A stretch of 64,000 nucleotides of DNA from Hexactinellida sp. DTS-2022 (taxonomy: Eukaryota; Porifera; Hexactinellida), in assembly GCA_028753945.1 (NCBI GenBank), contig JAPNXP010000014.1, forward strand, positions 3,162,001 to 3,226,000, given 5' to 3'. Shown piece after piece: positions 27,241-63,823 of the stretch (its first letter is position 1; the number at the start of each line of letters is the position of its first letter). The notes under the pieces are model-generated. The model saw nothing but the letters and a program-made list of their open reading frames with translations. It was not told the DNA's origin and ran no database searches. The position numbers and the translations under genes were made by a program.

Positions 27241-27252
27241 TATATATATATA

Positions 27253-27746
27253 GTAGGGTCAAAAATGAAGGTTCCGTGACCAACCTCTGGCTAGTTAAGT
27301 TTTATGCCTGATTCTGATACTTTAGGATATATCTCGCGATTTAAGCTCCCATGCCGCTCTGGAAAGTTTGGGCAAACTTTTTTATAGCGACAAATTCAAA
27401 GGGCCTCTGGCAATAATTTTGAAAAATTAAGGTCCCTCTCTGAACATTTCATAAATTGAGATTAGAGTATTTTCCCGATTGAGTTGAAATTTTCAGTGCA
27501 GCTACTACTTATTGTATACTGTTCAAAAATACTCTAATCTCAATTTATGAAATGTTCAGAGAGGGGCCTTAATTTTTCAAAATGATTGCCGGAGGCCCTT
27601 TGAATTTGTCGCTATAAAAAAGTTTGCCCAAACTTTCCAGACCGGCATGGGAGCTTAAATCGCGAGATATATCCTAAAGTATCAGAATCAGGCATAAAAC
27701 TTAACTAGCCAGAGGTTTGTCACGGAACCTTCATTTTTGACCCTAC
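27253..27746. mobile_element. Palindromic TA-MITE, GTAGGGTCAAAAATG ends, copy 1
   Basis: A 494-bp element with arms of about 220 bp that are inverted copies, from gtagggtcaaaaatgaagg to ccttcatttttgaccctac, flanked by TA. A second copy with an extra central palindrome is at 61926-62983. No coding capacity. Confidence 0.9.
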
Positions 27747-27756
27747 TAATATTTGT

Positions 27757-31020: not shown

Positions 31021-31107
31021 CGGACACATCGTCGCCGGACATTTCGTCGCCGGACATTTCGTCGCTTGGACATTTCGTCGCATGTACATTTCGTCGCATG
31101 TACATTT
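31021..31107. repeat. Left terminal array of the MULE
   Basis: Five to six units of 15-18 bp based on cggacatttcgtcgc, inverted relative to the right array at 33303-33506. Confidence 0.88.
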
Positions 31108-31379
31108 GACATCCGCTATATCGGATGTCTGTTAATTCAAACTAAGACCGAAGAATAAGTCCATTGGTTCATTAAGTTGTCTTTAATAAATCACTTCTAC
31201 CAAAAGCCAAAAAATTCATTGTAAACAATTGTTTTTAATTTACAATTAAATTCAAGTAAGCTTTGATGACAGTTGAAATCATATAAAATAATAACAGTAC
31301 CTAGGTTGTAGTTACTGATGTACGTATATAAATACGTGAGATAATAGGATATATTATTAAATATTTATTCGTAACAACA

Positions 31380-32788: not shown

Positions 32789-33209
32789 GAAGAATAGTTT
32801 ACATTACAAAATCAGTAGTATATATTTAATATTATCGTATTGCCCTGCTAATTTAGCTTTCATTCTTTAAATCTTTTCTTAATTCAATATTAAACTTTCC
32901 AATCTCGTATACCGTATATACTCTAATAGTAGCCCCTATTCGAATAATCGCCTACCTCCAATAATAGCCCCCCAAATTAGCAAATAAAAATTTACCACCG
33001 GTACCCTGAATAGATTTCTTTATCTAATATTAGTCGCAATACGATTATCAATCGACTATATTAATTAAATTGTATCAACATGTGATATTCTCAAAAGTCA
33101 CAAAAATTATTGTTTCAGAAAATGGTCTAAAAAATGATAATCGCCTAGGCTACTATTCGAATAAATACGGTATGTTCATTTATATTCTATGTGAATCATG
33201 GTTATCATA

Positions 33210-33302
33210 CACTCAACATACAGTATCTCGAAACTTTAGGGCATATCAAAATCCGTTCAAAAAGTTTGAATTAACGGACATTCGATAATGCGGATGTTGA
33301 CT
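33210..33302. mobile_element. Degraded TA-MITE related to 24986-25086
   Basis: The motifs acagtatctcgaa, aaatccgttc and gaattaacggacattcgat..gcggatgttgactatg follow the same order as the MITE at 24986. They lie just inside the right MULE array. Confidence 0.55.
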
Positions 33303-33506
33303 ATGCAGCGACGAAATGTCCAAGCGACGAAATGTCCGGCGACGAAATGTCCATGCGACGAAATGTCCAAGCGACGAAATGTCCGGCGACGAAATGTCCG
33401 GGACGAAATGTCCGGCGACGAAATGTCCATGCGACGAAATGTCCAAGCGACGAAATGTCCGGCGACGAAATGTCCGGCGACGAAATGTCCAGCGACGATG
33501 TGTCCG
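33303..33506. repeat. Right terminal minisatellite of the MULE
   Basis: About 13 units of 14-16 bp, gcgacgaaatgtcc plus one to three variable bases. The open frames across it (repeating ATKCP) are artefacts of the repeat. Confidence 0.92.
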
Positions 33507-38018: not shown

Positions 38019-41000
38019 CATAGCCTACTCTATATAAGGCCTACCATCACATGTACCATGAATGAAGTAGTGTACGATATGAATTACTATGTTACAATAC
38101 ATAATGGTAGGAATGTGTTATTTGTTCTCTTGTTGAGAGAGAAACACATACTACTGTGTTTCCTAATTCTAATAATTTCACAAATAATGGAAACAAAACA
38201 TAGAATAATAAAGGTAAATATGTAAGTGTTCAATGGGTATGTATCCTTCTTAGTGAGCGAATTTTTTAAATTTACGCTTTTCTATACCTTTAGAAATAAG
38301 AGCGGAGTTATAATTCTTGACTTTATTTGCAAGGAGACAATTGGAAGATGTGAAAATAATTTTCTTTATGATAATAATCAGAGAGACACCACAAGATATG
38401 CAACTTGAGTCACCAATCATACTAGTGTCTTCTAAGAATATCAACGTAAGCTGGACAAGAGACTTTCTGAATGATCCTTGCATGAACATCGCCGTCAAGT
38501 TGTCTTTGCTCTCAATCGCAGTAAGAGTCTTCCATAAAGTTATTATAGAGTCTAGTATAACCTCGGATGGATATTTTAGACCGCCACGGTCGGTTAATCT
38601 TATAAGTGTAAGCTCAGGTTGTGAATCTTCATAAAAATGAAAATCCTTATCAATAGTTAAAAATTCATTGCAAACATGACATGACTGAGTGTTTTTCAAA
38701 TACTTATGTACTGAATATCCAGCGATAAAAGCCAATGACTGAACTATTTGTCTACATTCAATGGAAGTTAAATCACCTATTTCATCCATGACCAGTTGCA
38801 CATCTATTTCGCTATCATTACAAGTATCACACGTTGTTGAGTATGAATGGATAAATGTTTGAAGTGAATTAAACCCAGATTCTTGTTGGGACGAAAATAT
38901 CTTCAAAATGTTGGATAATTTTAGGCGGCGTTCAGTTTCAAGAATTTGAAGATATGTAATATGATAATTCGAACCTGACATCATACGATATAGGCCAAAA
39001 TGATGTTCTAACGGATCTGTCTGTAAAAAGGAACTCAAGAGATATTTAAATCCACAAAACTCAGTTAAATAGTTGGTAATCTCAGGCAAGACAGTACACG
39101 AATGTTTGATGCTGGTAAAAGTTTGCTTACTTAATTTTCCTTTATCGCCTGGTAATGCTTGCCAAGCTTCTAACCAAGTTACAACACAAGCTAAGAAGGA
39201 AAATCGTTCGTCCTGGAATATTAAAGGTCTTGAGAAATCATCATTTAAACGTTGACCTTTAAATGGTGTGTTTATATTGAATATTTTCCAAATTTTAAGG
39301 AGGATATCAACAAACTCATGAGTATTGTTTCTGGTTTCTGGCTGACGAAGTTCATTTTGTAATTTCAAAGCTGCAATTGTCAATTAATTGATTACTTTCA
39401 GAACTAGTTTCACATTTTGGCGCTCAATGATAGAAGGAAAGTATGCTTTGATAGTTAAGTTTGGAGCTAATTTAGCTAAGGATTGTTTCTCTGAATTGTA
39501 GAGGAGGCGCACATCATTGAAAGATGCTGATAGAACTTGAACTGGATCTTCATAAGAACTTAACTGAATGTTTTCAAAGTTGGGGAAGTGAAAAGTTTTA
39601 TGAAAATCTTGCTGATTTAACCAGTTGTTTCGAACTGATTTCAAGAGGTGTACAGAATAAAAAATAAAAAGAGCTTTCTTTGGTGGCAAGAAGGGTGTGG
39701 TACATGAGTTTCTAACTTCTTATTTGGAGAGAATTGCTTGAATAAATTCACATTTAAGGGATAATTATCTGTAGAAATAATTTGTACTTTCAAATCGCAA
39801 GATTCAATATCCAAAATACAAGATCTGATTATGGGAAAGAGAAATTCAGCAGTGATGGATGCACAAGGTATTAAACGAGCAATACAGGACCATTTCTTAT
39901 GTAAACTTGAAATCATGATGGCAAAAACAGTTCTTGTCGGGTTATCAGGGGATAGGTTAGGACCAAATATTTTACCACCTTTATATGAGATATCAGACTT
40001 AACGTGTATTTCATCCATCTGAATGATTACATTCTTCTCTTGAGGGCTAAAAGAAGAACTAACCTGGCTAAGGTATGTACTAAAATCATTTTCCAGGCCG
40101 AAGGATGAGTACAACTTCTCTAGCGTATGAACATGTGGTAGAGAAATGCATTCTGAACTTTGAAGAAAACTGTAACTCGCAGGAGAAATTAAATGCGTTT
40201 TTAAAGCCAAAATTTGAGTAATAACATTATATCTTCTTCTCTTCTTAGGAATATCAGAGTTCTCTAATTGCCCAAGGATAAATTGCAATTTTGTCACTAA
40301 ATCAGAATAATTAGATCCTAATTCATCATCATCAACAAGATCAAATATTGCTTCATCAATATGTTCTTTTGCTTTAGATATATGTTGTGAATATCTCTCG
40401 TTAGGAAAAGAGTTTTGCTTAAGAGTAATCTCTGATAATAGAGTTTCAATCTGTCGAATATCAGTGATAGAGTTATGGGAAAGAGAACAAACTTGCCCAT
40501 ATAGATAGCCAATCACTGATAAATAGGTATTTATTTCAAGCGAAACATCTACAGAAATCTTATGATTATCCATCTTTGGTAAGAATAATCTAATACAGTT
40601 ATCCTTTGAAAACCAAACTAGCCAGTCAGTTGGGAGTGTAATTAAACTTAACTTATCTCGAATTTCTTGTACACAAAGAACACGAAACTTTTCCAACTCT
40701 TCATTCTCTGATTTCAGACTGAGATTAATTGCTTGGTTTAAGAAATCTTGCTCCTTGGAGTCAAAAGAAAGACGAGTGCTTTTGACCCCGGTTGATAGAG
40801 TGGATGAGTAATAGGGAGGACAACCTGGAAGTAGATAAGGAACAGCGCCAAGTTTCAATTTTGGTCTTCCGCGCGGTACCTCATAGAATGTGCCATCTCC
40901 TTTGGGTACTGTGTGAAACAGTTCAATATCTTCCTCCAGAAAATGCTTAGAACAAACATACACAGTTTTGAGATCACAAATATCTTCACGATGGAGAGCA

Positions 41001-41449
41001 CGTATCCAAGCCTGGCGAATCTCAGGTGGACCTTCAGGGAGTTTAAATACTGTAACACGTTCTTCAGGGGTATAATTACCCTTACATCCGGGAGCAGAAC
41101 AGTTAGGCATTGAAAAACTAGTTCTAATTATAAATGTTGGGGAAAATATTAATTAAATAAGACATTGTTTACTCTGGCCTAAACAGAGCAAACAAAGGGG
41201 TGAATAAGGAATTGACAACCCATAAAGGTTGGGAAAGGCAGGGAAAGCCTGGTTAAATAGATAATCGGGTGACTACTGGGAAAAAATATATACAAAACGT
41301 ATTTGAAAGTTGATGAAAGTATTTTGTAATATATAGTACTTATATAAAACTAATATTTCAATTTATGGGTTGATAATATATCGTACACTGCTTTATCCCT
41401 AGTCCAGATTTTCGAGGTTGATGGTAGGCCTTATGTAGAGTAGGCCATG
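38019..41449 (-). mobile_element. P-element copy D, full length, nearly intact
   Basis: 3.4 kb with terminal inverted repeats catagcctactctatataag and its right-hand partner (reverse complement catggcctactctacataag, both followed by gcctaccatc). Flanks gtaatat and gcaatat may be a worn 8-bp duplication. The transposase (next entry) reads minus from 41110 to 38250. The leader (41111-41449) and the 3' region (38019-38249) are short. Confidence 0.9.
38250..41110 (-). pseudogene. P-element (THAP9-like) transposase, one frameshift and one stop
   Basis: A nuclear transposase of the P superfamily, roughly 950 codons. Residues 1-95 are a THAP C2CH finger: MPNCSAPGCKGNY, ...VYVCSKHF, ending AVPYLLPGCP. 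Then a helical/leucine-rich region, and the RNase-H core with VIIQMDEIHVKSD (first Asp) and IISTDNYPLNVNLF (second Asp). LFIFYSVHLLKSVRNNW follows, where related copies have FDxVH. DPLEHHFGLYRMMSGSNYH (final acid region) and a Cys-containing C-terminus (CHVCNEFLTID, CISCGVS) complete it. A frameshift lies near 39680, and an in-frame TAA at about 39384 stands where copy B has GAA (VNELT). Otherwise open, so this is a recent insertion. Confidence 0.92.
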
Positions 41450-46536: not shown

Positions 46537-47062
46537 TTGACTAACTTGCATTTGTTAGAATAGTTTTATGACTAACTTGCATTTGTTAGAATAGTTTTAT
46601 GGTCGACTTGCATTTGTTAGAATAGATTTATGGTCGACTTGCATTTGTTAGAATTGTTTTATGGTCGACTTGCATTTGTTAGAATTGTTTTATTGCTAAC
46701 TTGCATTTGTTAGAATAGTTTTATGGCCAACTTGAATTTGTTAGAATAGTTTTATGACTAACTTGCATTTGTTAGAATTGTTTTATGGACAACTTGCATT
46801 TGTTAGAATTGTTTTATGGCCAACTTGCATTTGTTAGAATTGTTTTATGGCCAACTTGCATTTGTTAGAATTGTTTTATGGTCGACTTGCATTTGTTAGA
46901 ATTGTTTTATGGCCAACTTGCATTTGTTAGAATAGTTTTATGGCCAAAATGCATTTGTTAGAATTGTTTTATGGCCAACTTGCATTTGTTAGAATAGTTT
47001 TATGGCCACTTGCATTTGTTAGAATTGTTTTATGACTAACTTGCATTTGTTAGAATTGTTTT
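46537..47062. repeat. Left terminal array, about 17 units of 31-32 bp
   Basis: The unit is ttgcatttgttagaat followed by [a/t]gttttatggccaac with variants (gtcgac, gactaac). It is inverted relative to 48827-49025. Confidence 0.93.
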
Positions 47063-47438
47063 TTGATCGATTGTATTTCCACTTGATTGGTATATTTAAT
47101 TTTATATTTTCTAAGTTTAATTTCTACCTGTTTCTGAAAAACCTATGAAGATTGAAGTGTATATTTCACAATTTTAAACAAACTCTGTCAACAAAAATAT
47201 TATCATTTGTCACTAATTTCATGTTTTCCAGAAACCAAACATCAGTTTCATTTCTGAAAGGATTCCTCTCAGAATTATATATAACAACAACATTTGGCGT
47301 GGTTTACACGTACGATAACTTAAATTGAATATACAATAGAAGAATACAGACGCACCGGTGGGAAAGTTTTCACTACATCAGATGAAATAAATACATCCAA
47401 TCTAAATCAAAGGTAATTTTGTTTATTTAAGATGTGTA

Positions 47439-48782
47439 TTGTTCAGAGATGGCTGCAAAGCAACGTGCAAACTTAATCGTGAAAGGGATTTAATTACGCC
47501 TTTAAAGCTTCATAACCACAACACCGAGGCCTACCGAAATGAATTATTTGCCCTTAAGAGGAAATGTAAAACGGTTGCAAAAAATTCGCAAACGAATTTA
47601 AGGAAGGTATTCGATGATGTTACGAGAGATAATCCAAGGGCATGTGAAATTTCCTTTTCAGAATGCGAATCTAGGATGTTTCGAGCGAGAAAAACCTTAG
47701 AACCTAGGATCCCTCAAACAGCTTTAGAATTCAGTGAAATTATATCGACTACTACTTTCGGGAAGTTTTTTAAATTTAGCCTAACAGTGGGTAACGAAAC
47801 TGGTGTGGTATTCTATTCAGATTCAATGAGTGAGTTTCTATTGAATTTTACTAACATACAATATGTTGGCACATTTTTTAAGGTCCCCATTCAATTTTAT
47901 CAGTTGTGGACTATTTTATTTCAGTGGGAAGACACAGTCTACCTGCAATTCATTGTTTAATGACCGGAAAGAGACAAGATTTATACCAAACAATATTAGA
48001 ATCCGTCCGACATAACATTCCTCACTTTAGACCTCAGGCATCGATGTCAGATTGGGAAGAAGGCCCCGAAATGCTTTTAGAGTAACCTATCCCCAGCTAA
48101 AGATTTATGGATGCTGGTTTCATTTCATCCAGCGAATTTGGGCGAAAACCCAAGAACTCAGTCTTGTCGAGGGATATCGTAAAAACAAGAAATTGAAAAA
48201 TTTATCAAAACATTGATGTCCATTCCATTTTTGCCACATCCCTTAATTATTCCCACTTTTGATTTTATTCAGATGCCAACTAATGTAGAAAATTCGGATA
48301 AAATCAAACTCGAAACACTAAAGAAATATTTCAAAAGAAGATGGTTAATTCGAATATCTCCAGAGGATCTTTCTATCAATGAGCTCAACATTGCAACCAA
48401 CAACGGAGCAGAAAGTTATCATTCAAAACTAAAAACCAACATACGTACAAGTCATCCAAGGATTTGGACTTTTATAGGAGTCCTAAACAACATAATTCAG
48501 GATGTGGACAACGATGTAGGACGTTTGTGTCAGAGCAGGCAAATCAGTAGGCCACAGAAAAGGAAGGATTTAAAGAATTTCGAACAAAGGGATAGATGCA
48601 AGCAAATGTTAATTGATGGCGATTATGATCCATGGCAGTTCCTGGAAGTTATTAGAAGACCTAAGCCAATCTTGTCCTATATGTCGCTCGAATATTCAGA
48701 ACATGTTCCAAATATTCATTCATCAATATCCGGAGTAATTGTTGTGTTCTTAAGTATAATAAACCATTTCGTATACTGTTAG
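47439..48782 (+). pseudogene. MULE transposase relic
   Basis: The first open segment (47439-47960) starts within a FLYWCH-like region (CKATCKLNRERDLITPLKLH-NHNTEAY). It continues with ALKRKCKTVAKN and then the start of the catalytic fold (GVVFYSDSM). A frame change leads to AIHCLMTGKRQDLYQTIL and RPQASMSDWEEGPEM (about 47950-48070, with the likely second Asp). Another segment at 48213-48782 gives ELNIATNNGAESYHSKLK (final Glu in NNGAESYH). At least two frame changes or stops are present. Confidence 0.82.
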
Positions 48783-48826
48783 TAAATCAGGTTATTTTGT
48801 GCACCATGACTTAAGACATAGGTATA

Positions 48827-49025
48827 AAAACAATTCTAACAAATGCAAGTCGACCATAAAACTATTCTAACAAATGCAAGTTAGTCATAAAACTATTCTA
48901 ACAAATGCAAGTTAGTCATAAAACTATTCTAACAAATGCAAGTTAGTCATAAAACTATTCTAACAAATGCAAGTTAGTCTTAAAACAATTCTAACAAATG
49001 CAATCAGTTGAAATTCTAACAAATG
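48827..49025. repeat. Right terminal array of the MULE
   Basis: Six to seven units of attctaacaaatgcaagtta plus gtcataaaact, inverted relative to the left array. Confidence 0.92.
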
Positions 49026-50173
49026 CTGCGCCCCCATTATTAGCTGACATATCTTTATCTCAATAGCTAGTAATGACAGATATATGATTACGTAAACTCT
49101 ATTTTTCGTGGGAATTATCGTGTTTTTATAGCCCGCTTTTAACATAGTTAAACGCATTATAATTGTTCAAAATTGGAACATGAGGATTTCCATAACTAGT
49201 TTATGAAATATATAGAAATTATAAATGGAATGTTAACACATTCCTCGGTTTCCAGGGAAAGCCATATTTCTTAAAATGAGCCATAACTCAAAAACTATCT
49301 ATTTTATGTAAACAATGCAGGTACTGTCTGTACTGATCTATCCGCAATTGGAACTTCCTATTCATTAATAATACATTTTCTAGGCCTAACTTCAATAATC
49401 TTTGAGATAATGAGTGTACAGTGGAACCCCGCGTATCGGGGCACCTCCGTCCAAGCGCTCAGCGCTCCGATACGAGGGAGTGCCCCGATATGCGGGGTTC
49501 TAAGAGAACTCCAATATGTTTGGTTAAAAAAATTAAGTTAGCACCTACACAACAAATCATACACATATAGTCAAAACCTAGAGTTAAGGCAGATATTTAA
49601 GCAGTACTACACTTTACAATTCCACATTATACTTTACCTACACTAGAAGTCACAAATCTATGATATTCACGGAAATTTCTTTTTGAAAAACTCCCTCGAT
49701 TAAATCTGCACGAGTCTCTAGCGTGAGTGAGTGACGCTTAGCGGTCATTACAAAGAATACTAAGCTGCTCAAAAGTAAAAAGCATGTTACTCAAGAGAAA
49801 TAATCTTCGGTGGAGTGCCCCGATAAGTGAATGGCGCCCCGATACGCGGGTTTATTTTTAATGGGAAAAAAACAAATTCCCAACCGACTGCCCCGATCGC
49901 GGGGTTCTACTGTATTACCATATAAAGAATATAAAAACACGATAGATTGCAACGAAAATAGCGATTACGAAATCAAATGGTGATATATCACAATTCTTAA
50001 GGGTGTTATGTATGCCTTGATGTCATGTTCCTAACTTCCTAGACAATTATAATCCATTTCTCAGGTCTGTCATTACTAGCTATTGAGATAAAGATATGTC
50101 AGCTAATAATAAATTACCTTTATGTAATCCATGGTTCGGAGGAGTAGTAAGGCCTTATATAACGAAGGTCACG
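49026..50173. mobile_element. Foldback MITE with P-like end, left end truncated, carrying a TA-MITE
   Basis: The right end ttatataacgaaggtcacg and interior (ataactagtt, attataaatggaatgttaac, ctcggtttccagggaaag) match 44847-45803. The left arm begins at attattagctgacatatc and lacks its terminus because the MULE ends there. The TA-MITE at 49419-49912 sits near its centre. Confidence 0.82.
49419..49912. mobile_element. pogo/Tigger-type TA-MITE, CAGTGGAACCCCGCG ends, copy 1
   Basis: 494 bp from cagtggaaccccgcgtatcg to ...gatcgcggggttctactg, flanked by TA. Subterminal gccccgatacgcggg-like motifs occur at both ends. A second copy runs off the window at 63824. Confidence 0.9.
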
Positions 50174-51300
50174 ATAGATGCTTCCAATTTGTTTATAAGG
50201 GGTCATCGAAGGTGCGGATTTGAAATTTGGTAGCCAATTTAATTTAAATTACTATTTATAAGAAATAATTGAATTCACTAAATTTATGTTAAATTCACAT
50301 TGAAATCGGTGTTAAATTATTAATTATAATAATTATTATTTATACTAATTTGCTAAAGAGCATAATCTCAGAGATGATACAAGATAGAAACAAATTTCAA
50401 ATTTATCAATTGATCATTATACCACGTAACACCCCTATAAATGGGTCTTGACACCTTGTGGTGATGATGATATCATCAAAAAATGTGGTTTTTTTACAAT
50501 TTTGTGAATTATATACTTTGAATGAGTTGGTTGGTGTTGGCTGAACACCCAACACGCACATACAAAATGCTAACTCATCACTTATTAAATTCTTCTGAAA
50601 GTTGAATATCTTGAAATTAAGTGAGCTAAAAAGAAACTTACAACTCAGTAAGGGTCGTTACATTCCGAAACACCTTACTGAATTGGTTTAACACCTTCAT
50701 AGTGATGATGACATGTCGAAAAAATAATCCAAAATTGCAGCAGTGAAGACAACATTTTCCTTTGGAGGCACTATCAATTAACCAACTACCAAAATATAGT
50801 GCTTCGAAAGGAACATGCGTCGGCACAGCTGCAATTTTGTTATTAATATTATTAGTCCGTATTCTCTACACAGAACAAATTTTAATTAACTAGAAGCCCA
50901 AATTTTCAGGATATGTGTCTCATAGGTTACAGATGTGCACCTGGGGTCAGGATTTTAGATTAAAGAATTTGGACACATTTTTGCACCTATTCAATGTTAG
51001 AAAAGGAACAATAAAAAGTGCGCGAATATTCAATTTATATGCATTCGATCTAGAATTTAATTCTACACCTTTTACAGTGCACGAATTCTCAAATTGGGTT
51101 TAGTTTGTGTCACAATTGAGTTGCAAATTCCCTTTCTTTACCAACACTTCAGTTCAATTAAAGGTGTTAAATCTAATTTTATTGTTTCAACTTGTGATAA
51201 CTATATTGATTCCACTTGTGAATTCGAGTAGGCTTCTATTTTCTAAATTAAAACTAAGATTTTGCATCCCATACACAACAACAGATTATGTGATTATATT
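50174..51300. other. Non-coding, partly dispersed-repeat sequence
   Basis: No gene. Part (50930-51185) is the repeat shared with 14750-15002. Repeated aacacc..at..gtgatgatga motifs occur near 50440 and 50690. Confidence 0.5.
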
Positions 51301-51304
51301 GGGA

Positions 51305-51480
51305 ACGACGCATTTGTTAGAATTTTGAAGTTGTCATTTGTCAGAATCTTGAGTTCTTACTTTGTCAGACTGGATTTTATCTCGTTCTGACTTTGTCAGA
51401 CTGGGTTTTTATCGACTTCTGACTTTGTCAGAATGGGGTTTTTTCGAGTTTACTTTGTCAGAATTGATATTATTGTGCTA
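51305..51480. repeat. Degenerate array of gactttgtcagaat units
   Basis: About six spaced units of tttgtcaga[at]t/ctgg, the first reading gcatttgttagaattt like the MULE terminal arrays. It is possibly the end of an otherwise lost MULE. Confidence 0.6.
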
Positions 51481-51637
51481 TGATTTGGGAGGATCATTTT
51501 TTTCATTTTGTAACTTATAATTTATTGTCAACTTTATATAAATAGTTAGAAGAAGATAAATAACTATGATAAGAACCTTAATTGGATGTGATAAGTGGGT
51601 AGGTTAGCTCGTGAATATTTGAACATATCGTCTATCG

Positions 51638-51780
51638 CAGTGGTTCTCAAACCTTTCACAGCGCGTACCACTTCATCAAATATTAGGGTCTCCGCGTAGC
51701 ACCATAATGATCGATATTTAAATAGACCCCTGAAAACGACGTATAACATATCGTACACCAACCAGCCAAAAGTATTTGAA
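51638..51780. mobile_element. hAT terminal fragment (CAGTGGTTCTCAAACC)
   Basis: The sequence cagtggttctcaaacctttc then gcgcgtaccac is the widespread hAT end seen in many animals. No matching right end was found, so it is truncated or decayed. Confidence 0.6.
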
Positions 51781-52588
51781 CAATAAGGATTTCAATGCAC
51801 ACACATCACTCGTCTGGTAACTTATTAACGGCTATCTAAACTACTCTGAAATGACTATAAATATATTATTATAGATAGAAATTGCAAAATATTGTGATTT
51901 CTATTCAATTTTGAAAAAAATCACGAAGTGGCATAAGTATTTCTGCCACGTGCCACTTGTGGGATAAGTGGCACAAATGGAAATGTGGCTGTATCACAGC
52001 AGAAAATATTCAGATTGATTTGAGATTAAGCACTTAGAGTAATTAAACCATGTGGAATTCAAATCTGCTATCAGAATTAATATATTAACATTGCATCTTA
52101 ATGATAACTAATTAATTATTTAATTAGCTAATTATATATTTATTGAGTTTAACGCCAACATAAAAATGTAAATTCGAAAACTTTGCTGTTTTATTATACT
52201 TTAGACATCGTTTCATGTAAATAGCCATTTTGTAACATCTACTAATGTTATTATGCTGGTATAACCTCAAATGTCGGAATACCAATTATTGCTGTTCAAA
52301 TACTTTTGGCCGGGTATTGTACTAAAGTACATTTCCATTGTATTTAATAACATTTCAATTTTGATGTATTTTTAAAGTATACTGATCTACCCCCTCTGAA
52401 GGGCGTAGCTAGGAGAAAGTCTCTGCACGGTCAAATGTACAAGCAGCGAGCGTAGTGAGTGACCTAAGGGGGTTGGGGAGTATACCCCCAGGATTTTTTT
52501 GCAGAGTAATGTTAACTACTAATCTACCTGGAGGAAGCATAATTTACTAACAAAAACAAAATACAATTGATCTAGAATGTGTACTCTA
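51781..52588. other. Non-coding stretch
   Basis: No gene. Near 52395-52490 the phrase gggcgtagctagg..gcgagcgtagtgagtg resembles the end of a further non-autonomous transposon, with no partner found. Confidence 0.45.
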
Positions 52589-53341
52589 CAGAGGGGCTGG
52601 ATGGATTATGGATTATGGATTTCATGGATTTATGATCCATCAAATCCATAATCCATGGATTTTGGATGGATTTGGATTGACAAATCCCAAACTCATGGAT
52701 ATCGAATGGATTTGGATTCTCCAAATTCAAAGGAAATCCATGAAATCCACGAGATCCATGAAATCCATAAGATCCATGAAATCCATCAGATCCATGAAAT
52801 CCATCCGTCAGTACCATTGCAGGCGCTATCAGTATCTATGTTGGGCGATTATAGTGCCTGCATGGTACTGACGGAGGTACAGGTGGTAATTAGGATTTAT
52901 TTCAACGGTTATTATCAATTGAACTAACAGAATTCACGAATCAAATTCGATGTAATCAATACGCCTATCCAAATCTACAACATAATAGAAAATCCATTTC
53001 GTAAACTAACACATTGTACCAGAACGTATGTGTGATACTAGATTCTATTGAAAAGAATTCTAACAAGTAAAGTGAGAAGAAATCAATTAGGAAATTGAAA
53101 CATGGATATTCCATTACATAATAATAATTAAAGTTTATACATACGGGATTTGATGGATCTTATGGATTTCATGGATCTAATGGATTTCATGGATCTGATG
53201 GATCTGATGGATTCATGGATTGGACATGGATTTGATATCAGTATTCCATATGGATATGGATTGGATTTGGATCTATATTCCTGTGGAAAATGGATTAGTG
53301 AATGGATTTGGATTATGATTTTGGTCCATCTGGCCCCTCTG
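52589..53341. mobile_element. hAT-type element filled with ATGGATTT-type minisatellite, perfect 8-bp TSD
   Basis: The ends cagaggggctggatgg and ccatctggcccctctg carry the duplication gtactcta at 52581-52588 and 53342-53349. The interior near both ends (52600-52805 and 53150-53300) is a simple array of atccatgaaatccat and its inverse. A small palindrome (cagtaccattgcaggc...gcctgcatggtactg) lies at 52808-52873. Open frames with repeating MDLMDFMD or EIHEIHEIH are products of the repeat and not genes. Confidence 0.88.
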
Positions 53342-53349
53342 GTACTCTA

Positions 53350-53686
53350 GCAACATTAGAGAATTGAAGGTATTGACGGTGTTGAATAATATCAACAATA
53401 AACTGCCAACAATTCAAATGGCTGAATTAGGGGTGAGCAAGTGCAACTCTGGTCTACTTTTAAAGAGCAGATTCATTGTCCACATGAAATTCCCCGTCGT
53501 TGAAGGGGTCACTTGCCCATAGTTTATCCCTAACAACGCAATGATGTCTCATTTACCAAAATTGGTCCTAAACCTATCGAGTGACCCCTTGTCAACCCCA
53601 TCAGCTATCTGAGTCTAGTTATAAACATAGTGACACTCTAAATAGTTATTTGATGCTGTTTACGACAATTTCCTTAGTTCTCATTA
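53350..53686. other. Non-coding stretch
   Basis: Nothing recognised. Confidence 0.5.
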
Positions 53687-54034
53687 CAGTATATTCTCTC
53701 TAATAGTCCACCAGTGGGTAAAAGGACCCAGGTGGGCTATTAGGGAATATGGAGCATTATAGAATTTATCCTTAAGTAACATCAAATATACATAATATGC
53801 TATGATACGGTATAGTTATCATATATTATTACAAGCAAATATAATCGAGAATATATACGTAGAGTCAATATAAACTATTAGGGAGTATGAACTGTACGAA
53901 AGTAATACGTAATCAAATCTGGTATTTACTAGTCCATCTGTAGTTAGGGGGCCCATGTGGACGCTAGCTTAAATAACATCGAAACTAATTAAGGTGGGCA
54001 AATAGAGAAGTGGACGTTTAGAGAGAACTGAGTG
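53687..54034. mobile_element. TA-MITE with TTCTCTCTAATAGTCCACC end
   Basis: The left end cagtatattctctctaatag, then tccacc, and the right end ggacgtttagagagaactgagtg are imperfect inverted repeats flanked by TA. It is pogo/Tigger-like in style. Confidence 0.7.
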
Positions 54035-54036
54035 TA

Positions 54037-54957
54037 CAGGGAACTTAACACATAATGGTGACAAGCCCTTCGGTCTCGGTCGCTTTGCGACGGATCTGTG
54101 CTACACACCTCAAGTTAACGGCCGCTATGCGGCCTTACTCATCATCCTTGCTACCATGCAAAATGGTAGTGCATGGTATAACAAACCTTTCTACCATTTT
54201 CTATAGTTTTAACTTGTTTATCTATAATACCCGTTGGAAGCAAACTTATAGGTTGATTTTGAATTTTAATTAATCTGTTTACCTATTATAACATTTGGAA
54301 GTTAGTTTATATCTTATTTATAAATACGGTTTCGATTCCCTAATTAATACAATCCGGACAAACACACAAGTAAACAAATAACAATCGAGTTTTAATAATA
54401 GATATACTGGACTTAAGCACTAAATCTTATAATAAACTTAAGAGTTTTTAGAAATATTGCTGCTAGGTCCGGACAAATTACACACTCACGAAATCATTTA
54501 TAGCAAATTGACTGTTTCTGCAGCTGCATGAAGTAGGGTTAAAACTTAAGACGTACTTTCGGATACTACGTACTCTATTAGCCGATTTTTCCTCCTATCT
54601 GATCCACTATAAATGATTCGGTTAATACGTACTCAGATATGACGTACCTCTGATAAGACGTACCAATTTCTATTCCCAAGTAAATAAATATACTTGTATT
54701 TTAAATCGTCAGAACGTACTCGATAAAACTATTAGCAGAACTCAGTTAGTAATTGGTTTAAATGAGTAGGTTTCAACTAAATAGTATTAACGCCTCATAA
54801 GGGGGAAACATTTCATACATTTCACACCTCTCGATAGTATTTCAGAACGCTTTGAGTTAAAATGATTATAGCCATTAGAAATTCTGTAAATACCTGATTT
54901 TCTATACGTATATAATACATTTTAGAACCCTAGGTGTCACGGTTTTCAAAATAACCA
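54037..54957. other. Non-coding stretch
   Basis: No gene. The motif acgtac[ct] recurs every 20-40 bases around 54550-54720. Confidence 0.45.
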
Positions 54958-54959
54958 TA

Positions 54960-55580
54960 CCGTAAACTGGGGCGACTTTGACCCTAGGAGGTTACTTTGT
55001 CCCACAATAGCAATTTTAATTAAATATTTTTAAATAAGAAATATTGCGGTTTGAATACCTTTGGATATATTGTGAGTTTCATTCAACATATTATCAATAT
55101 GATCACAATTATTCATTATTTGGTGAAGTATGTTATTGTAGTTTTATTCATTTGAGTATTTAGAGTATATTTCAACAAAGATTATATGTTTAGAACTTCC
55201 TTGGAATTTTCGAGGAAATACATCATTATGCACATAGTTCATTAAGTCTTCCATGGATTCAAGTATAAAGTAATAATTTTCTAAACAAATCAAAAAAGTG
55301 CATACTGTAAGATTTGTCATTATCGTTTTCATATGAAATGCTTTTATTTCACGTGTTTAACATAATGGGACAATTTCAACTCCATTATATAGGTAGCTTT
55401 GGCACAAGATAAAGTTTTAGAATAATTAGTTAGAAGTACCCCAAAGTTTAGCTATCTCATTATTTGAACATTTTATGTGCTACCAATAAAATTAATTGAC
55501 AAATACTATATTCCCAGAGATTATTTAAAGAAATACATTGATAAACGTGAAATAATGGGACAAAGTCGCCCCATTTACGG
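54960..55580. mobile_element. TA-MITE with CCGTAAACTGGGGCGACTTTG ends
   Basis: Left end ccgtaaactggggcgacttt, right end aaagtcgccccatttacgg, flanked by TA. Internal inverted motifs gtcccac and gggacaa are present. Similar ends are common in animal MITEs. No coding capacity. Confidence 0.85.
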
Positions 55581-55582
55581 TA

Positions 55583-56029
55583 TATGATAATTTTCATGTG
55601 ACCAATTTTGATGACGAAGCATATTTTCCCACTCTTGATCTATGTACAGCAGAGACTAGCTCAAAAATTCTAATCACATCACACAGTGGTTTAAAATGGG
55701 AGTTAGCAAAGAATAGGTATCCTGGTTGCAGATAGACATATGAAATGTATTAAATGCATATGGGTTATCGTATACTAGAAATCGATTGGTGTAATAATAA
55801 TTTCTCTATGGCTTCTACATATTCAGTTATGACGTCATTACACATTAAAAAAAAATCTTTTTCAATAATTTTTTTTTAAATTTTCACTACAATGTAACTT
55901 GGTATTTCTGATAAATAATAAATTACTCCCTAAACTAATATTTTTATTCTTATTTAGCTATATTATATTTAATAATCTCAAATTTTATGAATGAATTATG
56001 AGTGAATCAACAATTTTATCAATGGACGA
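55583..56029. repeat. Dispersed non-coding repeat fragment
   Basis: Shares the order gatgacg.agca.atttt, gacta.agctc and aatcacatcac with 8880-8980 and weaker parts with 60700-60900. It borders the 3' end of the RAG1-like gene. No gene. Confidence 0.45.
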
Positions 56030-56486
56030 TTATAACGCATTATTATAGTTATCTCTACAAGCCTTAGCTCTTCTTGTATGACTGTGTTCCCCACACTTTT
56101 CGCAGACTAAATTTGATCGATATAGATTTAGTACGGGATCACTTTCCGAAGCCAATCTCACGAAAATGTCCATCACATTATCTTCGAACGAAGACTTCCT
56201 TGCGAGATTATCCCTATACTTTCTTAGTAGCTTGTTGTATGCCTCGGATCCTTCCTCAGAGAAACTTTTCAAGCCACGGCCATGGTTGAACTCTTTCAAA
56301 ATTTCTTCTGAGTAAGTTAATACCCTATGCAATGTAGGTGTAATGAACGCCCGCGCCCATGGTAGAGACTCAACGATCATGATATAAGTTTCTGTACACA
56401 GATCCCCAAATACTTCAGTATCAATAATTCTGTCAGAGTTTATTATTCTAAGAATAGCGGACAACTGGGTATGTAGCTTTGAGAGC

Positions 56487-59158
56487 AGAGGCGGCGCCAC
56501 GCTGGGGAAAGGTGGGGCAAATGCCCCACCTGGCCTTCGGCTTGCCCCACCACTGGTGGGGCAAGTCTTATCAATAGCTTAGAATTTATTTGGGCGCTTT
56601 TGAAGTTTTTTTTCGCTCGTCTTCTTAATAGGACGCTTTTTAAACCCAATTTTGTAGCATGGATACGTTTCAATTGGTTTTAATGTTTTATACCTTGTTA
56701 TTACTGTTAGTCTTACCATGAAAAAACTTATGGCGTCGCCTACCGCTGCCGAAACTACCAGCTCACCCTCAAGCTCATGCTCTATGGTTGTGACCGGTTC
56801 TCCTGCCAAGCGAGCCAGAACGGATCTGCCCGACGTAGTTGACTTCCCTAAGATTGACGGTGTCACTGATGTTGCTCGTAACCTTTCTGAGTCACCTTCC
56901 CAGCCAATCCTCAAGGAGTACAAAAAGACCATGTTTGGGGCTATTTCACGATCATTCAACAAGAGTTGGTTTACTGGGAGATCTTGGCTAGAGTACTCGC
57001 TTTCTGCTAATGCGGCGTTTTGCTACTGCTGCCGTGCCTTTTCCAACTCCTCCACTAGCGATCAGTGGACGAAGATTGGGTTCGTTAACTGGAAAGGCGC
57101 CATGGAAGAGAACAAGGGCTTCAAATCACACGAGGCTTCCGAACCTCATATCACAGCATCTCTGAAGTGGTGCAACTTCAAAGAAAGCTTCCGCAGTGGA
57201 AACATCATTGCCAAGATGCAAGCAATCTCCTGACAAGATATCCTTGATAACCGCCACTTCATCAAGACAGTCATCCAAGCAGTTGTTCTATGCAGCGTGC
57301 AAGACTTGGGTCTGCGTGGTCACCGCGAGGGAAGTCTTACTGGAGACTCATCGGAGCTGGGCTTCAGCTGTGGAGATCGTAACAGAGGCAATTTGCTTGA
57401 GATTTTGTCATCGTATGCCGTGCATGATCCTGTCGTCAGAAGGAAGCTAATGAGTGGTCCCAGTAACGCGCAATACACCCATCATTCTATTCAGGACCAG
57501 CTGCTATCTCTCCTCTCCAAGTATGTACGTGACGACATCCTTGCCAACCTGAAGTCAGCAAAATTATTTGCTATTTTGTGTGACGAGACAAAGGATGTTG
57601 GAAAGAAAGAGCAACTTTCCATATGCCTGCGCTACGTCGATTGTGGGGTACTCCATGAGGACTTCTACAACTTCGTGAAGGCAGACGGCTTGGATAGTCG
57701 CTCGGTCATGGCCGTTCTGAAGGAACAACTGGAAGGAATGGGCGTGGACTCGGCAAGCCATTTGATCGCCCAGTGCTACGACGGAGCGAGTGTGATGTCC
57801 GGTCGTTTGGCAGGACTACAGGCGCTGATGCGTCAGTCTGTGTGCCCCTTAGCGATTTACTTACATTGCTGGGCCCATCGTTTGAACTTGGTAGTCGTCG
57901 CTTGCGTGTATGGCATTGATAGGGCTACCTGGTTTTTCGAGCACATGCAGACGCTCTATAAGTTTTTCTCCGCCAGTGTTCCCCACGACTACTTCCAGGC
58001 TGTACAGCAGAATCTGCGAGAGAACACTTGCGACGGTAAAGCGTTGACCCTGAAGGAGCTGAAGTCTCTGTCCAAGACGAGATGGTGCTGCCAAGCTGAA
58101 GCGTGTGACGCCGTCGTCGCCACTCTGGGAAGCATCATCGCGACTGTGGAGCACTTTGCAGACGACGACTACAGAGATAGACAGGCTGCTGCTCAGACAA
58201 TCGTAGGGTTCATCGATACCGACTTCGTAGTATGCCTTGTTCTATTTCAGAACGTCCTCCGTAAATGTAGTGTGGCGGCAAACTACCTGCAGAGTACAGA
58301 AATGGACACAAGCACGGCTGTTGAGCTCGTCACTGCACTGAAGGATGCTCTTTCAACCCCAGAGTTGTTCGACGAGATATGGACGACTGCAACCGCACTC
58401 ACTCAGGCACACGACATTGCTGCTCCTCTCCAGATCCGACGCCGAAAATGTAGGGCCAACGCCAACCAGCAAACTTGGACACGCAGGGACTATAAAGAAC
58501 AGGTGTTTGACAAGGTGATCAAGTTGTTTGTTGACGAGCTCGAAAAACGTTTTGACAAGACAGTCTGTGACATCCTTCGCGCCATGGCTTCACTAGTCCC
58601 TCAATCTACGCATTTCCTAGACTTCGAAACCTTGAATCCCTTCGTCATGCACTATGCCCTCGACGCGAAGTTGCTGAAGAGTGAGATAGATGTATTCTCA
58701 GCCCAATACAAGAATGCCGAGCCTGGATGCAAGTCTCTACTTGATGTGCTACAATTTGTAGAGCCCTTCAAAATCTGCTACGCACAGCTCTACAAAGCAC
58801 TAGTTATTGCAGTAACCATACCAATAACCACGGCTGAGAATGAAAGGTCATTTAGCTGCCTGAAGAGGACTAAGACGTACACTCGCAGTGTGATGAACGA
58901 TGAACGCCTTGGGGACTTGGGTACCCTATCTATCAATAGAGAGCGTGCATCTAACATCAATTTCGAGGACATCGTAGATGCGTTTGCAAGCCTATCGGAC
59001 AGACGGATGGGGCTCATATAGTACTAGAACTATTGTGTCAATTTGTGTGTCTACCTATATTTTTTGATAGTTGTTTTATAGTTAAACATTTTGCCCCATC
59101 ACAGATGTCCCTTGCCCCGGCCAGCCCCATCGCTCATTTTGGTCTGGCGCCGCCACTG
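56487..59158 (+). mobile_element. hAT DNA transposon, complete and nearly intact
   Basis: A 2672-bp element with ends cagaggcggcgccacgc and ...ggcgccgccactg. The 8-bp duplication is tttgagag (56479-56486) and tttgagtg (59159-59166), with one mismatch. Subterminal tggggcaa/ttgcccca motifs occur at both ends. It encodes the transposase at 56718-59021. It inserted antisense into the RAG1-like gene. Confidence 0.95.
56718..59021 (+). pseudogene. hAT transposase (TTF finger, ZMYM1-like), single in-frame stop
   Basis: 768 codons in one frame, broken only by a TGA at about 57231-57233 after NIIAKMQAIS. A TTF-type zinc finger occupies roughly residues 75-130 (SWFTGRSWLEYS, AFCYCCRAF). The catalytic RNase-H fold follows: AILCDETKDVGKKEQLS (first Asp), CYDGASVMSGRLAG (second Asp), LHCWAHRLNLVVV (the C-x2-H signature), TRWCCQAEACDAV, and a C-terminal dimerisation domain with TTAENERSFSCLKR and MNDERLGDL (final Glu). 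GC content is higher than its surroundings, which suggests recent arrival. Its ends resemble those of the 6.6-kb element at 15982-22576. Confidence 0.94.
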
Positions 59159-60069
59159 TTTGAGTGTTTCTTTATGTTCAGTTCTAACAACTGACAATAT
59201 ACATTCAATGTAACTAGATTCGAATGAAATGCTCGACGCGCTGCCAGTAGAGGTTGTGCCTCCTCTCGAGTCAGGCTGGTCTATTCTCAATCCTGTTTTT
59301 CTTCCTCTAGCGTTCTCACAAATATCATCGATTTTTTTATTGCTAATGAGGTTGGTGACCATGTAAGTTTACCACAGTTTAAATGATAAACTAGAAGGTT
59401 GAACCACCTGAAAATGCAAGTGTATGAATGCAACGGTGATGCTGGAAGGATATTTATTGTTGAGGTTGGTTCGGGAGTTAAATTGCACCGTTCGTTAGAA
59501 GGAAGTGAGAAGAAACAATCGCGATCTTCTATTTCGCCATAAAGTTGAATCGCGTCTGTGATATATCTATTAATAGGAAATCCCTGTATTATCCAATCAC
59601 CATCCTTTAGTTCTTTGTGGGCAGCGGTGCATAATTGCCAACTTGCCCGACCTGCGCCAGATAGAATTGATGCCATTTTCCTAATCAAACATAGATCGAA
59701 CAATGTCAACACGGACATGATCATTACTTTCAAGAATAAATCCTTCACTCTTCATTAGATCTGTGTCCGGGTTGATCAAATCGCTCATGAATTGCTTTAT
59801 GTTAACTTGACTTTCTTTCGCAGCTTGAAGGAAAATCGGGCGCTGAGTGAAAGGAGAATTGGGACAGGTATTTTTCCAAATTTCCCGACCACTAAAACTA
59901 GTGTCTGTATTGGCTTGAACAGAATAGGATGAATGACTTTGTATCTGTATTTGTTTTTGATTGATTGTATACAGTGTAACTTCCGGAGCCATCTAGTCCA
60001 ACTGCTACCTGGAATTGCAGAGGAAAATCTTGACGCTCTTTCCGCAGAAATGCATGGAGTGAGTATATA

Positions 60070-61430
60070 CAACACACTACTCGTTTATCATAGTAAGCTG
60101 ATATTTTCAGATCTATACTGGGTATATATGTAAGCTATTTTAAGACTACTAATGCTCTAATATAAGGCTTCTAAGTACTGATATTTTTTGAAATTATTCT
60201 TTTATGCTCCCATAGAGAATAATATAGTACTAAAAGCTTAGTTCTGAAGAATTGAAAAAGAGTACAGATCTAAAAATCGGTCTAATCCATTCTACCATAT
60301 CCCCTTGAGTTCCTCTAGGAAGGTGCTAATATCAAAAAGTCAAATTTTTCATCGGAATTGCTCGATTTTAGAAAAAACGGACGTTTTCCCACATTTGAGC
60401 CACATTTTTGCTCCCAAAGGGCCCCAGTTTGTATATTAAGAACGAATTCGGACAATCGGAACTGTAATAGGTCTTAATTTACTTGTTATAGTGGTATATT
60501 CCAAATCTCAGCTTTATAACTACAAAAAGTTCCCCAAAACTAAGCTTTAAAATTGTGGCATGCTAGAATTAGATATGGTGGTTTACAGGTGGCAGAGGAT
60601 TTTCGACACGTCTACAGCGAAGAATATTGATTCGGGAAGGAATTTAAATCGGCCATCTTGCTGGAATTCAATCACTGATAGTGTCTGAAAGTTAGAACTA
60701 AGCTCTAGATCACTTTTGAATTTGGATTTCTTTCTTTTGATGGTCACATGACACCTCCATATATGGGCATTCGAGGTTATAGCAAGGTAACCATTTGGTT
60801 TTGAATGATTTTTGAGTTTGCAATGATTTAGAGATAATATATCAATGTGAATAGTAATTTATAGCTAAGCTCCAGAGTCCCCCGATAGGAGATACAAATT
60901 TGCATGTGTCATGAAATTGGTCACATTCACACTACCATATATGGCAGTGTCGAAAACGGTACGTCCTAGGCTTATAAAATGTATTATTTACATATGGGAA
61001 ACCATGTGTGCTGATCATTAGTACCTAGTGATATTTGAATTTATCTCTTTTCGTCTCTGAGTTACTAATTAGTTAAGAATCCGTACCCTAAAGATCGCCG
61101 AAGGGCTATAACTATTGCAATATCCACTTTTTACAAAAAAAATTGCTGAGTTTTGAAAAAATTTCCTCAGACTATCATATGTCTGAATATTGAAAATTCT
61201 TATCACAATTACTAGTTTATTTACGGTGTTGAAGTCCTTTGCCGTTATAAAACCGAGTTTGAAAATGAAATGCCGCACCATTAAAACGTTCATAACTCTG
61301 GAAATAATAGTCGTATCGATGAGTCCCATCAATAGATAACATCCTACCGCAGTGTCTGTAAAAATATTGAAAATATCTGACCATTTCTAATTTCCCAGTT
61401 ATTTTCTGCCGAAACAGCGTTGAGCTTTGG
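60070..61430. other. Non-coding segment inside the RAG1-like gene
   Basis: No matching transposase sequence is seen on either strand. It contains dispersed-repeat phrases (ccatatatggg, aactaagctctag, gtcacatgacacc) also found near 8900-9400. Boundaries are estimated from where RAG1-like reading stops and resumes. It is either an inserted element or an intron. Confidence 0.5.
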
Positions 61431-61925
61431 GAGGAGGTACTGTTGACATTATTCTACAAAATGTATGACGAACGTACTGGGCATATGGTACATATACGTC
61501 TGGAGTTACAGAATTGGGGTACATTTTAATATATGTTCGTAAATTATGTTGTTTCTTTGTTCCACAACCTTATGGTAAGCAGGCAAACAGAAGTTGCTAG
61601 ATAGCAAGTGATGTTGTAGATGAATATTTCCTCCTCCCTATCTCTAAGAAATCTATAAGGAATACTTCCCTGTTAATTCCTAGGTCTTGCTTCAATATCT
61701 TACCAAATTGACCAGGGAACCTATCATACACAATGGACTTGGAACCTTTGCTACCGCTCGATTATCTGTTTGATTGGACAGTAATTGTACGGCAAGTGCC
61801 GCAATCTTTACTTCCGAAGTATTCTCAATAATTGAGAGGGACTTGATGGATTCGAGGACACTAGAAAGTCTAGAACGTTGCTGCTGCAATGAAAGATTAT
61901 TAATACTCTTTCCATGATCCACATA

Positions 61926-62983
61926 GTAGGGTCAAAAATGAAGGTTCCGTGACCAACCTCTGGCTAGTTAAGTTTTATGCCTGATTCTGATACTTTAGGA
62001 TATATCTCGCGATTTAAGCTCCCATGCCGGTCTGGAAAGTTTGGGCAAACTTTTTTATAGCGACAAATTCAAAGGGCCTCCGGTAATCATTTTGAAAAAT
62101 TAAGGCCCCTCTCTGAACATTTCATAAATTAGATTAGAGTATTTTTGAGCAGTATGCAATAAGTAGTAGCTGCACTGAAAATTTCAACTCAATCGGGACT
62201 ATACTTTTAATGTAATAACCTTTTGAAGATTCTTACGTCATTTGTCACCATGGGAGGTCCATTCTTTAAACTATTTTTTAAGGGATTTGAGGCATATCTC
62301 ATCCTATATACATGCAATAACCTTTTAACTCGCTATGTAGTATGTCTCCATGTAAATCTCGGTAATAGACCTAAATTTACCACTTTGACTATACAAAAAT
62401 TAAAAAATCCAGTCATTTGACGTCAAAATTGTGATAATTATATATATAAAGTGGCCGAATAAAACGATTATGGGTCAATTTTTTTTGCTTCGTCACCCCC
62501 ATGTGAGATCTCCAGAAGAGTCAAAGTGGTAAATTTAGGTCTATTACCGAGATTTACATGGAGACATACTACATAGCGAGTTAAAAGGTTATTGCATGTA
62601 TATAGGATGAGATATGCCTCAAATCCCTTAAAAAATAGTTTAAAGAAGGGACCTCCCAAGGTGACAAATGACGTAAGAATCTTCAAAAGGTTATTACATT
62701 AAAAGTATAGTCACGATTGAGTTGAAATTTTCAGTGCAGCTACTACTTATTGCATACTGTTCAAAAATACTCTAATCTCAATTTATGAAATGTTCAGAGA
62801 GGGGCCTTAATTTTTCATAATGATTCCTGGAGGCCCTTTGAATTTGTCGCTATAAAAAAGTTTGCCCAAACTTTCCAGACCGGCATGGGAGCTTAAATCG
62901 CGATATTATCCTAAAGTATCAGAATCAGGCATAAAACTTAACTAGCCAGAGGTTGGTCACGGAACCTTCATTTTTGACCCTAC
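61926..62983. mobile_element. Palindromic TA-MITE, GTAGGGTCAAAAATG ends, copy 2
   Basis: The same ends as 27253-27746, flanked by TA. The centre (about 62216-62700) is an extra palindrome (taaccttttgaagattctta inverted at its far side) with internal gaaacatact-type repeats, producing mirror open frames at 62223-62420 and 62468-62686 that are not genes. It inserted in the N-terminal part of the RAG1-like gene. Confidence 0.9.
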
Positions 62984-63309
62984 TAACAGTGAGTATGGAT
63001 ACTTCTTCTTCGTCATCTGAATGCAAATCCAGGGGATTAGAAATACGATTCCTCTTCAACTCGGGTTCCATGGAAATATTAGAATTCCACCATTCTCCTT
63101 CCAAGGAATCTAGATATTTATTTGCCTTCCTGATTTTAGATCGTACTCTGAGGAACACCGCTTCCAATTGTTTGCTAGTTTGGAAGTCAATTCCAAAGTT
63201 CTAAACTAGGTAATCGAGGGTTGTCGAGACACAATTATTGTGGTCTTTAGAACTTTTGCAAGTTCAAGGTGAGAATTAGGGAAAGTTAACTCTTCAGCCA
63301 TAGAGAAAA

Positions 63310-63455
63310 GCGTAGAAAAAGATCGAATTATCAGCAAGTACAAATTATCAATGCTATATTCATTATAACATACGTATTTATATACATATTAACATATGGC
63401 TATTGATGTACAACAATTGTGTAGTTAGCGTAAATATAACTTGTAGTTACGAGTA
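63310..63455. other. Non-coding leader of the RAG1-like gene
   Basis: AT-rich sequence upstream of the putative start codon at 63299-63301 (minus strand). No terminal repeat of a RAG-like element was recognised. Confidence 0.4.
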
Positions 63456-63629
63456 CAGTGGATGCCGGTTATAAGCACATCGTCGGGAACTGCACTTAAG
63501 GTGCTTATAACCGGCATGTTCTTATAACCGACATAAATTATACACGGTAGATGGCAAACGTTTTCCAACACAGTGTGCTTATATCCGATATGTTCTTATA
63601 ACCGGTGTACTTATATCCGACATCTACTG
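63456..63629. mobile_element. TA-MITE (CAGTRGATGYCGG family), copy 3
   Basis: The ends cagtggatgccggttataag and cttatatccgacatctactg are flanked by TA. It is very similar to 20729-20902. Confidence 0.9.
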
Positions 63630-63823
63630 TAATACATTTGTAATTTGCATAGCAACCAAAAACTCACAATGGAATTCAATGAAAGTTTTTATGTTGCGCT
63701 TTGTTTCGGGATTTGTCATTTTAATATATGTTTATACAAGTTTTTCTGCATAACAAGTATTAATTTCTTAGTGGTGTTTTAGTGTTTAATTTTGCAGTTA
63801 CTTCAAAAAGAATTTAATTAATA

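Follow-up and report, generated by a model that had tools for sequence, protein, structure and literature searches.

Between positions 63313 and 56030, the minus strand of a 64,000-nucleotide stretch of contig JAPNXP010000014.1 (hereafter the window) carries a broken transposase gene, which probably belonged to a now fossil DNA transposon of the Transib superfamily, residing in a presumably eukaryotic genome and most like Subgroup I of the Transibs (PMC9435367) in its architecture. Three-frame translation recovered the peptides of this gene in the order that the initial annotation had given. MAEELTF and SKIRKANKYLDSLEGEWWNS come first and are followed by a palindromic miniature inverted-repeat transposable element (MITE), the frame 61695-61931, GRRKY and LPAYHKV. 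After some 1.3 kb the series continues with VGLDGSGSY, CPNSPFTQRP, CTAA...PLHSY and GGTTSTG, which an inserted hAT transposon separates from a C-terminal piece containing SEEGSEAYNK and SDPVL. The pieces recognisable as a decayed transposase of the Transib/RAG1 superfamily lie at 56030-60140 on this strand (Table 1). We hold with high confidence that a dead transposase of this superfamily is present at the locus, as the initial annotation had proposed, given the match of the C-terminal piece to HzTransib and a piece of the RNase H region (59684-59992) that aligns to HzTransib better than all of its shuffled versions.

In a phmmer search of the PDB the C-terminal piece, entered as 160 codons, matched residues 345-468 of HzTransib (6pqn), whose host we take to be Helicoverpa zea, at an E-value of 2e-10. 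BbRAG1L of the amphioxus transposon ProtoRAG (PDB 6b40) followed with 0.017 and chains of RAG1 with values between 0.31 and 1.3, and all seven PDB sequences found at E <= 10 were HzTransib, BbRAG1L or RAG1. The same piece reached the Pfam RAG1 family at 0.0092, under the gathering score. When all 2,003 six-frame frames of at least 20 codons in the window were searched with HzTransib, the top rank went to the C-terminal piece (1.7e-12) and the next to the RNase H piece (0.18), the two being co-linear on the same strand; with mouse RAG1 as the query the C-terminal piece likewise came first (0.0061). Each piece was also aligned separately to HzTransib by the Smith-Waterman method, with 1000 shuffles and 181 window frames of 60-120 codons with starts before 55000 as controls. 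The scores of the C-terminal piece (149) and of the RNase H piece (59, HzTransib residues 144-185) were reached by none of the shuffles and none of the window frames. The VGLDGSGSY piece with the first catalytic Asp (score 31, reached by 288 of the 1000 shuffles) and the GGTTSTG piece (score 33, reached by 182) are not significant alone, and both match HzTransib where expected, at residues 107-134 and 307-330, respectively. When frameshifts were allowed in aligning 60140-59159 to HzTransib, the score exceeded those of all 300 shuffles and all 112 stretches of the first 55 kb, with a value of 59 that equals that of the RNase H piece alone and is thus not independent of it; against mouse RAG1 the score was 46, reached by 2 of 300 shuffles and 3 of 112 stretches. 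A profile built from HzTransib and mouse RAG1, which was misaligned upstream, found the C-terminal piece (2.1e-11) and placed the RNase H piece only sixth (3.3). Nothing significant was obtained from NCBIfam and PHROGs (best values 0.22 and 0.023, respectively), and no relatives of the transposase were found in viral_contigs (C-terminal piece and profiles), in genome_contigs (profile) or in plasmids or phages (HzTransib fragment), these being viral and prokaryotic collections that say little on eukaryotes. Two further results were set aside: a GLTP identity for the C-terminal piece, which Pfam gave at 0.0057, below the cut-off, where the PDB search returned HzTransib at 2e-10 and no GLTP, and an AlphaFold model of this piece alone, with a mean pLDDT of 46.

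Motif order and catalytic spacing are shared with vertebrate RAG1. The codon of the first Asp is 59991-59993, one base away from the 59990-59992 of the initial annotation, which had the last Glu codon, 56243-56245, right. Its estimate of the distance between the two was also confirmed: when the hAT (2,673 bp) and one 8-bp duplication are subtracted, about 356 codons separate Asp and Glu, compared to 362 in mouse RAG1, 310 in HzTransib and, by the residue numbers in PMC7204232, 362 in BbRAG1L. The last Glu falls inside the significant C-terminal alignment to HzTransib, and the first Asp pairs with HzTransib D109 in a weak alignment. A proposed second Asp and a proposed His of the active site (codon 59428-59430, whose frame gave no alignment by itself) were placed by eye, as were the motifs serving as anchors, and show family-like spacing. 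From the second Asp to the His there are 85 codons, similar to mouse RAG1 (87) and BbRAG1L (83), the latter sharing the D1-D2-His-Glu spacing as a whole, whereas HzTransib has about 35 codons fewer (50). Likewise, the distance from Cys to His is 67 codons (68 in RAG1, 34 in HzTransib), that from the RP motif to the GTT motif 193.0 (about 192 in mouse RAG1, 156 in HzTransib) and that from the GTT motif to the Glu 111.3 (about 116 and 102, respectively).

Despite this RAG1-like spacing, sequence similarity is highest to HzTransib, with which the element shares SEEGSEAYNK, SDP, GTT and NPxP-type motifs. In the PDB search the C-terminal piece scored 44.5 bits with HzTransib, 18.8 with BbRAG1L and 14.6 or less with RAG1, the least similar of the three, while the catalytic region of mouse RAG1 reaches HzTransib at only 19.9 bits. 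In the best-aligned block, 62 residues long, the scores of the window are 89 (HzTransib), 83 (BbRAG1L) and 70 (RAG1), compared to 149 between BbRAG1L and RAG1 and 87 between HzTransib and BbRAG1L. In this block the element stands outside the BbRAG1L-RAG1 pair, and the advantage of HzTransib stems from the surrounding residues. A RAG2-like gene was not seen, none of the 98 frames of at least 33 codons lying wholly in 48800-56032 on either strand matching kelch, PHD or RAG2 at E <= 1, although a decayed RAG2L could escape such a search. Of the N-terminal zinc motifs (C1-C3, ZDD), no CxxC occurs in any frame of 62986-63313 or in the coding frame of 61695-61931, where the N-terminus may be incomplete; one CGTC lies in another frame of the latter segment. 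According to PMC7204232, Transib and RAG1L are told apart by low identity and by the absence of the RAG1 N-terminal non-core elements. Because no RAG2-like gene and no N-terminal CxxC were found and HzTransib is the best match, the element is better named a Transib than a RAG1L, a choice that we consider likely to be right. The initial annotation had spoken of a RAG1-like gene; if the RAG1L partner in a RAG1L-RAG2L transposon is meant, the same three observations leave this unsupported. A fossil RAGL transposon with a true RAG1L, whose RAG2L was lost by decay or is located apart, would explain the RAG1-type spacing and the tail described below, which is near the CTT* motif, and ecdysozoan RAGL genes are reported to be fragmented and uncoupled (PMC9435367). 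However, this explanation appears unlikely in view of the bit scores, the closeness of BbRAG1L and RAG1 to each other in the 62-residue block compared to the window, the 98 downstream frames and the N-terminal coding frames lacking CxxC, in which the element differs from most protostome RAG1L as described in PMC7204232.

Two features, the length of the zinc-binding region and the tail, suggest which kind of Transib this was. The extra length relative to HzTransib, about 37 codons, falls within a 154-codon open frame, and stop-free runs as long as this arose in only 6 of 2000 dinucleotide shuffles. The tail reads CEKCGEHSHTRRAKAC, i.e. Cx2Cx4Hx6C, and the pattern Cx2Cx4Hx4-6C, composed after the tail had been seen, was found once in the 77,955 residues of the six-frame window frames, namely at this position. 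The remark in the initial annotation that the tail is not that of a standard Transib holds, since it differs from the tail of HzTransib. It is similar to the CTT* motif Cx2Cx3GHx4C that essentially all invertebrate RAG1L, BbRAG1L among them, possess according to PMC7204232. Transibs of Subgroup I retain the alpha11-alpha12 (RAG2-binding) region and a CTT1 tail and have asymmetric terminal inverted repeats, while those of Subgroup II are without the alpha11-alpha12 region and have a different tail (PMC9435367). From the same paper HzTransib would belong to Subgroup II, and the order of a figure legend suggests that the ctenophore and Hydra Transib-9_HMp proteins belong to Subgroup I. As far as its description allows comparison, Subgroup I appears to share with the window element a zinc region of RAG1 length, a CTT1-like tail, a Transib-like transposase and the lack of a visible RAG2L, and differs in that the window has an x4/x6 tail instead of x3G/x4 and possibly a long N-terminal region. 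We therefore favor, with moderate confidence, a Transib of Subgroup I type, an assignment that is provisional, since Subgroup I was compared by its published description and no transposon ends were found. Alternatively, the element could have been an ordinary HzTransib-like Transib of Subgroup II, with the extra length representing a later insertion and the tail motif a product of chance, in agreement with HzTransib being the best match and with zinc-region halves that align to neither HzTransib nor RAG1. We regard this as quite unlikely, since the additional codons lie in an open frame and produce about the RP-to-GTT distance of RAG1, and the tail pattern is unique among the window frames.

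Several results weigh against a Subgroup I Transib as the source of the gene, or against parts of this interpretation. The mouse RAG1 query placed the RNase H piece third (0.95), behind a chance frame, and the piece with the first Asp matches mouse RAG1 at the wrong place; neither of these two pieces had a family match in the PDB at E <= 10. Both halves of the PLHSY frame failed to align (their scores being reached by 255 and 727 of 1000 shuffles, at wrong places), and because these zinc-region halves do not align, the claim of an alpha11-alpha12 region rests on length. The spacing of the tail (x4/x6) is not exactly that of the motif Cx2Cx3GHx4C (x3G/x4). In the 62-residue block the lead of HzTransib over BbRAG1L is slight, so that this block, taken alone, would not decide between them, and the sequences compared were three, namely mouse RAG1, HzTransib and 62 residues of BbRAG1L. 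The segment 61923-61400 was not significant against HzTransib, its score being reached by 20 of 300 shuffles and 26 of 208 other stretches. Finally, CAC-starting inverted repeats with a clean 5-bp duplication were sought at this locus by comparing 48.8-56.0 kb with 63.2-64.0 kb and were not found; the scan yielded just two weak pairs, whose ends agree at 8 of 14 positions and whose duplications agree at 4 of 5, and the ends may be lost or lie outside. We rejected a pair with CAC ends at positions 55682 and 63575, since it lacks a duplication and, by a rough estimate, chance alone would produce matches of this kind.

The gene is a pseudogene, dead through frame changes, stops, the MITE and the hAT. 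Nearly all junctions between the transposase pieces show a frame change or a stop, and the proposed second Asp is located at a frame break. The element interrupting the transposase, which the initial annotation had described as a nested hAT, is one indeed: it possesses the domains DUF4371 (Pfam, 6.7e-16) and Dimer_Tnp_hAT (4.9e-9), short inverted ends (CAGAGGCGGCGCCA / TGGCGCCGCCACTG) and an 8-bp target duplication (TTTGAGAG / TTTGAGTG) with 7 of 8 bases alike. Its main frame is stop-free over 595 codons and the hAT is therefore probably much younger than the gene it disrupted; relatives of its protein were not found in viral_contigs. These breaks and insertions also bear on whether the locus might be a domesticated host gene derived from RAG1/Transib and still in use. 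Open frames of 103, 154 and 182 codons are all that would speak for such a gene, which is highly improbable with a hAT and a MITE inside and the proposed second Asp at a frame break.

The N-terminal part of the gene is less well defined. By Smith-Waterman alignment to the nonamer-binding domain of mouse RAG1, the frame 61695-61931 scored highest among the 599 window frames with 40 codons or more, its score being reached by none of 1000 shuffles, or by 4 of 1000 when the following domain was included. By phmmer it was second of 2,003 frames (E 0.68), and a PDB search with this frame did not confirm the likeness, returning only an unrelated protein at 0.35. There is thus a hint of a nonamer-binding-domain-like sequence, and the N-terminal region, which the initial annotation had set apart from standard Transibs, may be less alien than it had assumed, at least in this frame. 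The frames in 62986-63313 gave no significant match (best values 0.1 in Pfam, 1.3 in the PDB and 0.023 in PHROGs), and their position suggests that they belong to the transposase gene. In the gap between the N-terminal frames and the catalytic pieces, the segment 60748-60988 resembles 8816-9056 (69% over 248 columns, blastn).

Table 1. Pieces of the decayed transposase gene and the elements inserted into it, by position in the window.
Feature	Position	Strand	Basis
C-terminal transposase part with catalytic Glu codon 56243-56245, SDPVL block, Cx2Cx4Hx6C tail and stop	56030-56485	-	
Inserted hAT transposon	56486-59158	+	DUF4371, Dimer_Tnp_hAT, ends, imperfect 8-bp duplication
GGTTSTG piece, set at the GTTNDGN motif of HzTransib	59159-59368	-	Best local match HzTransib 307-330
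154-codon frame at the expected zinc-binding region: CTAA, spacer of RAG1 length, LHSY	59290-59751	-	By eye and spacing
WKNTCPNSPFTQRPI piece (RNase H region) with proposed second Asp codon 59684-59686	59684-59992	-	Smith-Waterman alignment to HzTransib 144-185
VGLDGSGSY piece with first catalytic Asp codon 59991-59993	59898-60134	-	Best local match HzTransib 107-134
Stretch in which no pieces are recognisable; an intron or insertions of later date	60135-61400	-	Translated frames
LGINREVFL, GRRKY and LPAYHKV frames, set by eye at the HzTransib core start	61500-61690	-	
Possible nonamer-binding-domain-like frame	61695-61931	-	Smith-Waterman alignment to mouse RAG1 nonamer-binding domain
Palindromic MITE within the upstream frames	61924-62985	.	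Arms 97-100% complementary; relatives at 27246-27752
Possible N-terminal part: MAEELTF, SKIRKANKYLDSLEGEWWNS, acidic stretch; one frame change, one stop	62986-63313	-	Position

Other parts of the window contain further mobile elements and repeats. Another hAT, with a dimerisation domain (4.4e-11) in a 408-codon frame, lies at 612-1835, and a 503-codon frame at 39644-41152 combines a THAP domain with a TNP-like RNase H domain, which we take to be of P-element type. At 31021-33506, inverted arrays of a 15-bp repeat (31021-31107 and 33308-33506) surround frames with FLYWCH (4.2e-9) and MULE transposase (7.2e-10) matches. The same plan is found at 46538-49026, where a 31-bp unit is repeated in tandem, with 16.8 copies at 46543-47062 and 5.7 copies in inverted orientation at 48827-49003. 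Between the two arrays lie two frames on the plus strand, 184 and 199 codons long (47406-48779), without a Pfam match; this is perhaps an element of MULE type with tandem-repeat arms. One of 40 scanned frames gave a MULE match at 0.14, and 46950-47752 is 86% like 7470-8297. Tandem arrays with 9/18-bp units at 52733-53221, rich in ATCCAT (52733-52805) and ATGGAT (53146-53221), respectively, appear by eye to be mutually inverted. A near-perfect palindrome at 18256-22334, with arms (18256-19999 and 20590-22334) that are 99.8% identical when inverted, is either a recent inverted duplication or an assembly artefact. A 196-bp repeat occurs within its arms (19685-19880 and 20709-20904) and again at 63436-63631, the latter copy being 93% like each of the other two. 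Scans for exact matches to repeat sequences of the window, with one pattern in genome_contigs and two in viral_contigs, were negative. A 315-codon frame at 11001-11945 is, judging from its translation, the probable source of a Pfam match to palmitoyl-protein thioesterase (1.7e-79) that came from one of 56 frames scanned.

The enzyme that shuffles antibody genes arose from relatives of Transib, and in vertebrates RAG1 is a host gene working with RAG2, while the window holds a dead transposon. By analogy with HzTransib, RAG1 and ProtoRAG, the single recognised gene of the living element would have encoded a transposase of the DDE type (RNase H fold) that contained a zinc domain. This enzyme would have bound to inverted repeats ending in CAC, introduced nicks and formed DNA hairpins at both ends of the element, and inserted the element elsewhere, duplicating 5 bp of the target. 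It would have needed no RAG2 partner, a RAG2L presumably being absent while the element was alive.

How Transibs and RAGL transposons are related has been explained by two models, both given in PMC7204232, according to which either Transibs derive from RAGL by loss of RAG2L or the RAG2-contact region was already present in a Transib from which RAGL derives. The second origin is argued for on the basis of bacterial and Subgroup I Transibs (PMC9435367). It is tempting, if speculative, to see in the window element a RAG2-less Transib with RAG1 architecture, i.e. the RAG2-contact zinc region, a CTT-type zinc knuckle and perhaps a nonamer-binding-domain-like domain, that descends from the stage from which RAGL originated through the capture of RAG2. 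Its host would plausibly be an animal, of a lineage in which this type may be new. Each further RAG2-less element with a RAG1-type zinc region and tail bears on the question of Transib and RAGL origin, to which the present copy, because it is a single decayed fossil, contributes a data point rather than an answer. This dead element may nevertheless preserve portions of the antibody enzyme that are missing from HzTransib, the best-studied Transib.

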